A model generated the notes under the pieces. The model ran no database searches. It had not been told where the DNA came from and saw nothing but the letters and a program-made list of their open reading frames with translations. Shown here in pieces: positions 33,288-42,260 of a stretch of DNA of 64,000 bases. Origin of the DNA: Variovorax paradoxus (GTDB lineage: Bacteria > Pseudomonadota > Gammaproteobacteria > Burkholderiales > Burkholderiaceae_C). Where the stretch lies: the NCBI GenBank assembly GCA_016806145.1, contig CP063166.1:5766001-5830000 (forward strand), written 5' to 3'. A program made the translations under genes and the position numbers. Every line of letters begins with the position of its first letter. Position 1 is the first letter of the stretch.

Positions 33288-33581
33288 CTAGAAAGCAGTG
33301 CAATTCGAGGCTTTGGTCAGGGGTCGGTCAGTCCCTGTCGCCGCGCGGTGCGAGACGGTTTCGGTGGGCAGGACGACGCTGGCGCAGGCCACCGTCTTTC
33401 GTGCCTGCGCGGGCTCGTCGTCTAAGGACAAACCCCGATCGAGAAAGATCGCGACGTTGACGCACAGCAGCATGCACACGACCCACGCGCACAGCAGCTG
33501 AGCCCAGCGAGTCCACCAGCGGCGCGCCGGGGCGGCCTCCTGCTGCGCGGGCAGATGAAGGAGTGCATCCAGTCTGGTCAT
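33288..33581 (-). CDS. Small single-pass membrane protein, unknown function
   Basis: 97 residues. A charged start (MTRLDALLHLPAQQ) is followed by one hydrophobic segment (WAQLLCAWVVCMLLCVNVAI, about 27-47) and a polar tail with two Cys that I do not recognise. The ATG overlaps the stop of the MurF-like gene (ATGA), so the two are translationally coupled. It is the last gene before the exporter promoter. Its place suggests a membrane partner for the MurF-like fusion. It has no family I can name. Confidence 0.65.
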   Translation of the reverse strand: MTRLDALLHLPAQQEAAPARRWWTRWAQLLCAWVVCMLLCVNVAIFLDRGLSLDDEPAQARKTVACASVVLPTETVSHRAATGTDRPLTKASNCTAF

Positions 33582-40300: not shown

Positions 40301-42260
40301 GGCCGTCGTCGCCCAGCAGGCCGCCGAGCGCGCTGTCGTCGCCGATCAGGCTGCCCAGCAGGCCGTCGGAACCGAGGGCCGGGCCGAGCAGGCCGCCCAG
40401 CAGGCCGCCTTCGCCGCCCACGCCGCCGAGCAGGCCGTCGTCACCCAGCAGGGTGTCGAGCAGGCCGCCGACCGCGGTGCCTTCGCCGATCAGGCCGCCG
40501 ACCAGGCCGTCGTCGCCGAGCAGCTGGCCCACGAGGCCGTCTTCGCCGAGCGCGCTGCCCAGCAGGCTGCCTTCGCCGAGCAGGCCATCGACCACCTGGC
40601 CGATGGTGCCGTCGGTGCCCAGCAGGCCGTCGACGACGCCGTCGATGCCCAGACCGGTGGTCACGCCACCGAGCAGGCCATCGCTGCCCAGCACGTTCTC
40701 GAGGCCATTGGCCAGGGCGTCGGTGACGTAGTCGACCTGGCCGTTGAGCGAGCCGATCAGCGCGTCGGTCACGCCGTTGCCCAGCAGGGCATCGACGACC
40801 GGGGCGACCGCGCCGCCCACGCCGTTGGTCACGTTGTCCACGGCCGTGTCGACCGGGTCGAATTCGTTCGGATCGTCGGGCGTGAACTCTTCGCCGACGA
40901 TCGGCGCGAGCACGTCGTCGACCAGGTCGGTCACGCCATCGACCACCGGCTTCACCGGGTCGAGCACGCCGCCCAGGCCGAGGGTGTCGTCCACGGCGTC
41001 GATCGCGTGGTCGACGAGGCTGTTGCCCGGGTCGAGGAGGTGGTCGGCGTCTGCGTCTGCGTCTGCGTCTGCGTCTGCATCGGCGTCAGCGTCGGCATCG
41101 GCGTCCGCATCGGCGTCAGCGTCCGCATCGGCGTCAGCGTCGGCATCGGCGTCCGCGTCAGCGTCGGCATCGGCGTCCGCGTCGGCATCGGCGTCCGCGT
41201 CGGCATCGGCGTCCGCGTCGGCATCGGCGTCCGCGTCGGCATCAGCGTCGGCATCAGCGTCCGCATCGGCATCGGCATCGGCATCGGCATCGGCATCGGC
41301 GTCGGCGTCAGCGTCAGCGTCGGCATCGGCATCGGCGTCAGCGTCGGCATCGGCATCGGCATCGGCATCGGCATCGGCATCGGCATCGGCATCGGCATCG
41401 GCATCGGCGTCAGCGTCGGCATCGGCGTCAGCGTCGGCATCGGCGTCAGCGTCCGCATCGGCGTCTGCATCGGCGTCGGCATCGGCATCGGCATCGGCAT
41501 CGGCATCGGCATCGGCATCGGCATCAGCGTCTGCATCGGCATCGGCATCGGCATCGGCATCGGCATCGGCATCAGCGTCCGCATCACCATCGGCATCCGC
41601 GTCCGCATCGGCGTCGGAGTCCGCATCGGCGTCGGACTCACCCACGCCGCCAGGGACCTGGAAAGGAAGGAAGGCACCATCGCCGCCACCGCCGCCGCTC
41701 AGCGCGGCACCCAGTGCGGCCGCGCCCAGCGCGCCGAGAGCGAACTCGCCCAGGCCGATGCCGCTGCCGGCAGCGAGCTTCTTGGTCACGGCCAGCGCGG
41801 CGGCATCCGCATCGCTGTCGGGCGGGGTGACCTGCAGGTCGCCCGAGGCCACGTCGACGTTGACCTGCTCGAGGCCGCCGGGCAGCTTGGTGGAGCCCAC
41901 CGTGGCATCGGTGCCGCCGGTGAAGACGCCGGCCAGCGGCGCCTTGTTGCCGGCCGAGCCGGGGAACAGGACGTTGGCCTGGCCACCGTCGGGAACGATC
42001 ACGCGATCGCCGGCCATCAGCGAATGGCCGCCGTCGACGGGAATCGACACGCCGTCGCGCATGACGACCGTGCCCGGCGTAGCATTGGATAGCGATCCAA
42101 TGCTGCCGGGAGCAGTCGCGGCGGGCGCTGCGGGTGCGACCACCGGTGCCGAGCCCATGGGGGCGATCGGCGTTGCGGTGGCCTGGGCGATGACCACTGG
42201 AGCAACGCCGTTATCGGCAGTTCCTGCGGTCGAGGGGGACGATGCTTGTGGTGCAGTCAT
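37392..42260 (-). CDS. Giant repetitive surface/secreted protein with Asp-Ala tract
   Basis: 1622 residues from ATG 42260, preceded by GAGG; a GTG at 42332 is less likely. Residues 1-105 contain [20 protein letters not shown] and [14 protein letters not shown], similar to the N-terminal retention modules of LapA-like adhesins. A hydrophobic Ala/Leu/Gly patch (about 171-190) ends in poly-Gly. Residues 209-406 are almost pure Asp-Ala. A 125-residue module (about 407-530) reappears at about 885-1007 (shared phrases include [12 protein letters not shown] and [12 protein letters not shown]). Between and after them run [15 protein letters not shown] repeats, up to about residue 1510. The last 110 residues are non-repetitive and end in NILHGLLG. 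No canonical GGxGxDxUx RTX units are seen. Export by the adjacent type I system is inferred. Confidence 0.85.
37740..39235 (-). repeat. 63-bp tandem coding repeats ([25 protein letters not shown])
   Basis: In the giant gene the 21-residue unit, made of a 10-residue half ([10 protein letters not shown]) and an 11-residue half ([11 protein letters not shown]), recurs about two dozen times. Units differ mainly at Val/Leu/Ile and at synonymous sites. Near the 5' side of the array, units read GLLGG; at the distal end Asn and Val variants appear (LGNDGLVGG). A related, less regular array occupies about 39610-40660. Confidence 0.85.
39610..40660 (-). repeat. Second, more diverged array of the GLLGDDG repeats
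   Basis: The same Gly-Leu-Leu-Gly-Asp-Asp units occur here with many variants ([41 protein letters not shown]). Units are about 10-13 residues and do not keep the strict 21-residue period of the other array, which suggests an older repeat block. It separates the two copies of the 125-residue module. Confidence 0.75.
41043..41636 (-). repeat. Hexanucleotide microsatellite encoding the (Asp-Ala)n tract
   Basis: About 590 bp of near-perfect 6-bp units; on the plus strand they read GCATCG, GCGTCA, GCGTCC or GCGTCT. They encode residues 209-406 of the giant protein, nearly all Asp-Ala with a few Ser and one Gly at the N-terminal side. Changes in unit number keep the reading frame. The protein segment is highly acidic and should be an extended, disordered stalk. 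Confidence 0.95.

Follow-up and report, generated by a model that had tools for sequence, protein, structure and literature searches.

A conserved toroid protein recurs beside Asp-x repeat adhesins, in a Variovorax type I secretion cluster and in distant Gram-negative and Gram-positive bacteria

We analysed a 64,000-nucleotide stretch of the Variovorax paradoxus genome (contig CP063166.1, positions 5,766,001 to 5,830,000), here called the window; all coordinates are positions within that whole stretch and not within the gene cluster under study. On its minus strand, between 28433 and 42260, lie seven genes in the same direction, which encode, in order, a giant acidic repeat protein, a Pal-like lipoprotein, a fusion of a helical domain to a Mur ligase-like domain, a small protein, and the ABC, HlyD and TolC components of an exporter (Table 1). 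With these three exporter genes and a large putative substrate, this is a type I secretion cluster as judged from its gene families. The helical domain, here called the toroid, is a recurrent neighbour of adhesins that carry alternating Asp-x runs, in Gram-negative and in Gram-positive bacteria. A preliminary description of this DNA had placed all of these parts on one strand in the same order and had recognized a type I exporter. Both statements hold, although the exporter lies outside the range that it gave (33288 to 42260), the ends of which coincide with the stop of the small protein and the ATG of the giant protein.

Table 1. Features of the cluster and its surroundings, as positions in the window
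Feature	Position	Strand	Details
Sigma54-type promoter motif CGGCACGCAAGTTGC	42295-42309	-	starts 49 bp upstream of the giant-protein ATG
Giant acidic repeat protein	37392-42260	-	1622 residues from the ATG at 42260; open reading frame of 1646 codons
DNA tandem array coding for the Asp-Ala run	41043-41635	-	TRF period 12 or 18
Pal-like OmpA lipoprotein	36794-37300	-	Pfam OmpA 7.4e-24; TIGR02802 Pal 129.9 bits
Toroid/pseudo-MurF fusion, 1045 residues	33578-36715	-	
AGE-like alpha/alpha toroid domain (predicted fold)	35024-36091	-	residues 209-564 of the fusion
MurF-like domain	33578-34738	-	about residues 660-1045; without P-loop lysine and carbamylated lysine
Small protein, 97 residues	33288-33581	-	a single hydrophobic stretch, judged by eye
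Type I secretion ABC transporter, 604 residues	31390-33204	-	ABC_tran 9.2e-25; ABC_membrane 2.5e-16
HlyD-family adaptor	29992-31368	-	TIGR01843 316.8 bits, over cut-off
TolC-family outer membrane protein	28433-29995	-	OEP 7.4e-37; TIGR01844 5e-35, below cut-off
Sigma54-dependent activator	26945-28381	+	Sigma54_activat 2.4e-62; HTH_8; convergent with the operon end

The giant protein consists of an N-terminal beta domain, a 198-residue Asp-x run that is mostly Asp-Ala, a GLLGDDG-type region with a period of 10/21, and the C-terminus NILHGLLG. Its open reading frame (ORF) encodes 293 D+E versus 9 K+R, is 28.7% G and 19.5% L, and contains no C or W. By its long alternating run it is a putative Asp-x dipeptide-repeat adhesin, with export and adhesion predicted. 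In the array that codes for the run, GAC and GAT as well as all four GCN codons are in use. When the N-terminal domain was compared with four relatives, substitutions at codon positions 1/2/3 numbered 33/27/86, 32/27/80, 27/27/83 and 59/40/92, and the domain is kept in 10 aligned loci from five genera. Because the substitutions fall mainly at third positions and the N-terminal domain is conserved, we consider the reading frame real; we read the plus-strand ORF at 37227-42092, which encodes Ser-Ala in the repeat, as an antisense shadow of the giant gene. The giant Asp-Ala/GLLGDDG-repeat protein of the preliminary description is thereby confirmed in its repeats and supported in its frame.

No Pfam family, RTX included, matched the giant protein at an E value of 0.1. 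A protein-database search with its N-terminus returned no scoring homologue, which is a weak test, since the DNA loci do hold homologues. A structural model of the N-terminus reached a predicted local distance difference test (pLDDT) score of about 90 or above in much of residues 51-150 (overall 65.9), and its best PDB match was 5ix9, which we take to be the anchoring domain of a Marinomonas ice-binding adhesin (structure matches throughout are VIA-align results). On this model the giant N-terminus would have the fold of a known surface-anchoring (retention-type) domain. The Variovorax system thus resembles LapA-type adhesins and 5ix9 in its type I exporter and modelled N-terminal fold, but unlike LapA-type proteins the giant matches neither a retention module in profile comparisons of its N-terminus nor any RTX family. 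We therefore rejected RTX or LapA membership and retain only the resemblance in fold. The BapA_N prefix and NF045619 C-terminus of the BapA/Bap/LapF family were absent from the giant in family scans, and an hhalign comparison of its N-terminus to BapA_N was not significant.

The same gene order is found in nine Variovorax genomes (L033-L041, of which L033 and L038 are cut by contig ends), and one more locus (L042) has the same order but a toroid-only gene. The cluster is also present in Pseudacidovorax, Xenophilus, Hydrogenophaga and Xylophilus. Since the order recurs in relatives, we do not regard the cluster as a chance arrangement; the genes co-occur in Variovorax and nearby genera, as the operon idea of the preliminary description had supposed. 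We scored a run as an alternating Asp-x sequence of ten or more repeats inside the fetched locus. By this definition a run is present in 27 of 32 Variovorax cluster loci from the genome collection (several of them from the same strains as L033-L042) and in all 24 that have at least 8 kb of upstream sequence. On the contig shared by L068 and L167 the giant gene seems broken, with an N-terminal ORF of only 392 residues and Asp-Ser runs; the other cluster genes are present there, and the break could be an assembly error in the repeat.

As predicted from its fold, the helical part of the fusion is a conserved AGE-like alpha/alpha toroid. Its top fold matches were sugar epimerases and GH76 (model mean pLDDT 77.5), and an alignment of 19 sequences from Gram-negative and Gram-positive bacteria has 53 invariant columns, many of them polar. 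Membership in AGE is read from the predicted fold; no sequence-level relationship to AGE superfamily enzymes (cellobiose 2-epimerase, YihS) was found, which counts against it, a profile alignment to AGE enzymes was not significant and did not place the catalytic histidines, and the toroid protein differs from them by an extra N-terminal domain.

When the genome collection was scanned, 258 sites proved to encode a relative, and the 80 best-matching ones were kept. Together with eight further genome or plasmid loci (L129-L136) and five plasmid loci (L157-L161), 93 loci were scanned for the run. It was found in 64 of the 93, spread over 28 of 36 genus-level groups (our own labels, with metagenome-assembled genomes and genomes lacking names counted as groups). 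When the 32 Variovorax cluster loci were excluded, 37 of 61 loci had a run, and when a further 11 loci that share the cluster or giant type but come from other genera (Pseudacidovorax with six, Xenophilus with two, and Hydrogenophaga, Xylophilus and Lampropedia with one each) were excluded as well, the figure was 32 of 50. By comparison, 20 stretches of 20 kb, drawn at random from five genomes that have a toroid, contained none (Fisher P of 5e-7 versus 37/61). Among 54 matching records in a plasmid collection, 17 were opened, chosen for spread, and 16 had a run. Two overlapping even samples, of 369 and 399 genomes, yielded six genomes with a toroid, five of which have a run nearby. Where both are present, the toroid and run genes lie on the same strand in 36 of 48 loci and within 300 bp of each other in 17. 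These data show that toroids repeatedly lie beside adhesins with an Asp-x run, in Gram-negative as well as in Gram-positive bacteria.

Several observations weigh against a general link between the two. The random-stretch control is weak, as the stretches were not adhesin loci; three of the six toroid genomes from the even samples (G000, G701 = L086, G739 = L068) had already been counted; and the association was counted in one direction, from toroid loci towards runs. Outside the Variovorax clusters, 24 of 61 loci have no run. Runless loci at contig breaks include five from Pseudacidovorax, Xenophilus L080 and Pseudomonas L094 and L100, but others have no such break: Microbulbifer L112, L113, L119 and L124-L126, Oceanospirillum L106, Variovorax L123, Magnetococcales L127, G174 and Acinetobacter L133. 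Of the 14 loci that encode a protein with toroid, PGA_cap and Mur domains, only 4 show a nearby run, and of 8 Variovorax paralogue loci none does.

Acinetobacter L133 is a clear exception, in that its toroid gene (6911-8566) adjoins a BapA/LapF-type adhesin without an Asp-x run. The genome of the window (G000) itself encodes two more toroid paralogues, at C1:1309167-1313936 (L031) and C1:2275782-2277437 (L032), one a toroid-PGA_cap-Mur protein with an intact P-loop and the other a toroid alone; no Asp-x run was found in the 20-kb locus of either or in 15-16 kb on each side. An ATP-grasp insert considered in the long paralogue was rejected, the insert being PGA_cap.

The adhesins beside toroids are of several kinds. 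Among nine proteins scanned for families, those of Sphingopyxis and Pigmentiphaga have BapA_N and a BapA/LapF C-terminus, as does that of Microbulbifer with the C-terminus just below cut-off; those of Pseudomonas and Pseudochrobactrum have the BapA/LapF C-terminus; and others have a LapA retention module (Methylobacter), DUF4214 (Gulbenkiania) or a T1SS C-terminal domain (Parazoarcus). GLLG-type type I substrates also occur among the Asp-x-run neighbours, and the Gram-positive adhesins comprise staphylococcal SdrD-B and SdrF, a Listeria LPXTG protein and enterococcal proteins. Across these adhesins we saw no shared export route and no shared domain other than the run. Because the run alone is common to otherwise different adhesins, it is the likely link to the toroid. 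In a Burkholderiales genome (G496), L164 holds a 1607-residue ORF at 9467-14290 with a 1038-residue Asp-Ser run and no Pfam family, 3.6 kb from a toroid gene. In Agrobacterium L193 (2010-5235) the Asp-Ala run is divided among ORFs that lie in more than one frame, and the adhesin gene therefore looks frameshifted or misassembled.

Staphylococcal Sdr proteins offer a precedent for an Asp-x stalk whose neighbouring genes encode products that modify the repeat: passages of PMC3794999 describe SdgA and SdgB as glycosyltransferases acting on Ser of the Ser-Asp repeats. The toroid could by analogy be a sugar-side enzyme, an AGE-like epimerase or a glycosyl step, that glycosylates the repeats in a role akin to theirs. 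Its best fold matches fit this idea, as do a GT2 domain fused to one toroid and a Staphylococcus epidermidis record in which the toroid gene has sdrF on one side and, on the other, a gene whose best score is to SdgB (611 bits, against a model cut-off of 800). This last arrangement equally fits the run as the link to the toroid. Database names likewise say alpha-glucosyltransferase; some toroid genes of the plasmid collection are called poly(glycerol-phosphate) alpha-glucosyltransferase or tagE. That name looks wrong, because no glycosyltransferase family matched the toroids scanned. This absence sets the toroids apart from SdgA/SdgB, as does their pairing with Ser-free Asp-Ala runs, which offer no hydroxyl, and their commonest partners in the loci seen are Mur ligases. 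We therefore find a sugar-side role very doubtful.

The C-terminal half of the fusion matches the Mur middle and C-terminal domains and is MurF-like; it differs from MurF and other Mur ligases in lacking the P-loop lysine and the carbamylated lysine. None of the ten cluster relatives aligned has the P-loop lysine (7/7 Variovorax, two Pseudacidovorax, one Xenophilus). As for the carbamylated lysine, Asp stands in its place in 7/7 Variovorax and Arg in Xenophilus; in the two Pseudacidovorax sequences Met occupies the aligned position and a Lys lies one place away, which makes the loss there unsure and slightly weakens the overall explanation. In a 33-sequence Mur alignment, which included four degenerate sequences of the cluster type and five uninformative ones (four with other domains and one cut by trimming), GK[S/T] is present in all 24 remaining informative MurF-like sequences. 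In seven cluster loci (L042, L073, L074, L081, L083, L096 and L099) the toroid gene lacks a Mur domain; L042 and L074 share a contig, so these loci represent six genomes. Because the P-loop lysine is lost in ten relatives and seven loci have no Mur domain, it is very unlikely, as far as sequence can tell, that the Mur domain of the window fusion is a working ligase. The fusion and its MurF-like family, as proposed in the preliminary description, stand; with both catalytic motifs lost we rejected the proposal that the MurF-like part is an anchoring enzyme.

The degenerate domain is nevertheless still under purifying selection, judging by ratios of nonsynonymous to synonymous substitution of 0.255 for the Mur middle domain and 0.037 for the Mur C-terminal part, compared with 0.206 for the toroid (36 pairs from nine Variovorax sequences). 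In Xylophilus, an intact toroid-PGA_cap-Mur protein occupies the slot of the fusion. Together with the Mur-less loci, this replacement makes the Mur part dispensable or replaceable and the toroid the constant part of the clusters examined. Such a pattern, with partner domains that vary or are absent and a Mur domain conserved despite its lost P-loop, would suit a toroid that is a non-enzymatic chaperone or targeting factor, which binds the floppy charged run in the cytoplasm and passes it to the exporter, the Mur, ATP-grasp and other domains being recruited modules of other function. The lack of a signal peptide in the toroid protein, as seen by eye, is compatible with that role. The 53 invariant columns, many polar and shared across Gram types, resemble an active site instead, and a toroid also accompanies adhesins that Gram-positive bacteria anchor in the wall, for which no hand-over to a type I exporter is needed. 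We consider a purely chaperoning toroid unlikely.

The domains fused or adjacent to toroids comprise MurF-like ligases, PGA_cap with Mur, ATP-grasp, methyltransferase, GT2 and S11 peptidase. A YheC/D ATP-grasp partner occurs in L127, where no run was seen. In Agrobacterium L158 (9986-14968), a single protein combines the toroid with three ATP-grasp domains (YheC/D, glutathione-synthetase-like and RimK-like) and has a weak tubulin-tyrosine-ligase match; its gene follows those for a type I exporter and for a protein with a BapA prefix, whose Asp-x run is 506 residues long. Three toroid-Mur proteins (P0147, P0155 and P0165) are listed with an S11 D-alanyl-D-alanine carboxypeptidase domain, confirmed for P0147, which hints at D-amino acids. 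The existence of toroid-PGA_cap-Mur fusions, most of them away from a run, raises the alternative that toroid, PGA_cap and Mur make a separate poly-amino-acid capsule, similar to poly-gamma-glutamate, for which the Asp-x adhesin is only a carrier or primer. Of the toroids beside runs, however, most lack PGA_cap, the Mur of the window has lost its P-loop, and toroid genes with neither a Mur domain nor a Mur neighbour nonetheless occur with runs (in Listeria, S. epidermidis and S. lugdunensis as well as in some Variovorax), so that we judge a capsule pathway quite improbable.

The toroid's recurrence beside Asp-x-run adhesins in distant bacteria suggests that it acts on the repeats, and from this gene association we regard binding and modification of the run by the toroid as fairly probable. 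For toroids that have a ligase partner we favour a reaction at the Asp carboxylates, because two unrelated kinds of carboxylate-amine ligase recur; a fused or adjacent ATP-dependent amide ligase, either an intact MurF-like enzyme or an ATP-grasp, could couple an amino acid or peptide to them. Against this chemistry in the window itself, the ligase there is very probably dead, so amide ligation cannot be the cluster's own step. The Variovorax ligase would have decayed into a conserved, probably non-catalytic module, and the toroid may therefore work by itself here, or together with an intact paralogue encoded at another place in the genome.

With a little more confidence than doubt, we explain the cluster as a whole as making one surface adhesin or matrix protein that is prepared for export by the toroid. 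The sigma54 activator and sigma54-type promoter would turn on the operon, and the toroid protein, with no signal peptide apparent by eye, would act in the cytoplasm on the Asp-x run before the giant protein leaves through the predicted ABC-HlyD-TolC exporter. The modelled N-terminal beta domain probably plugs the TolC-like pore and so keeps the protein attached; attachment of the assembly to peptidoglycan may come from the Pal-like lipoprotein. The overall interpretation in the preliminary description is thus partly supported: the cluster is borne out, and the anchoring role given to the MurF-like part is not. A wider proposal, which we offer tentatively and with rather more doubt than belief, is a system general to Gram-negative and Gram-positive bacteria: an AGE-fold toroid would read the Asp-x stalks of giant adhesins and, together with a swappable ATP-dependent ligase (MurF-like or ATP-grasp), would decorate or isomerise Asp, Variovorax being a branch in which the toroid kept the task and the ligase became a pseudoenzyme. 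If so, the product would be a brush made on the ribosome that could be compared with cyanophycin or polyglutamylated tubulin.

Adhesins with Asp-x repeat stalks are found in bacteria that range from soil species to staphylococci. We know of no established role for Asp-Ala repeats, and the repeat-modifying enzymes known to us, SdgA and SdgB, act on Ser. One of the closest described systems is BapA/BapBCD of Paracoccus denitrificans, for which passages of PMC5588039 report 891 Asp-Ala repeats in BapA, biofilm deficiency of a mutant, so that the Asp-Ala adhesin is needed for biofilm, and migration at too large a size on denaturing polyacrylamide gels, with modification left open by the authors; a word search of that text found no mention of 'Mur'. 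In comparison, the Variovorax giant has the GLLGDDG region and, in our scans, a different N-terminal family, and its cluster adds the toroid, Pal-like and sigma54 genes. Among the open-access PubMed Central papers searched, none was seen to connect Asp-x adhesins with a Mur ligase or a toroid gene, and there was no paper with 'Mur ligase' and 'type I secretion' together. The toroid protein is thus a little-noticed partner of Asp-x surface adhesins in very different bacteria, and one conserved protein that follows these stalks across phyla and unrelated secretion routes gives a handle on the function of the repeat. If it modifies Asp side chains, this would be a protein modification of a new kind and would open a way to polyanionic brush proteins by design.

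The remaining genes of the cluster agree with the families first proposed for them. The Pal-like lipoprotein, described from the outset as OmpA/Pal, matches OmpA and exceeds the TIGR02802 cut-off of 125.35 bits; it has 168 residues from its lipoprotein ATG and, by eye, the lipobox LVAC. The 97-residue protein, which had been called a small membrane protein and whose single hydrophobic stretch fits that name, matched no family in Pfam and NCBIfam scans; a relative is present in 8 of 10 cluster loci examined, 44-71% identical over the aligned part, and was not found in the other two (L040 and L042). Its ATG overlaps the stop of the fusion as ATGA, and a second ATGA junction joins the TolC start to the HlyD stop. 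The top NCBIfam match of the ABC transporter is TIGR03375, below the cut-off of that model. Between 26000 and 45000 no RNA family scored above its gathering score, and anti-phage defence was rejected, since the three proteins compared with PADLOC gave no match.

Upstream of the giant gene, the motif CGGCAC-N5-TTGC or a close variant is present in all 30 loci with a detected giant N-terminus, from six genera, a count inflated by close relatives. It stands 49-51 bp before the ATG in the 25 loci in which the giant match began at residue 1, and the pattern has three matches in the entire window on both strands. The sigma54 activator gene at the other end of the operon is conserved with the cluster in relatives. 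Directly adjoining this gene is a Tad/Flp pilus gene cluster (14960-26928) that encodes a prepilin peptidase, RcpC, a secretin, an ATPase and TadE/G-like proteins, and this adjacency places two adhesion systems in the neighbourhood of one regulator.

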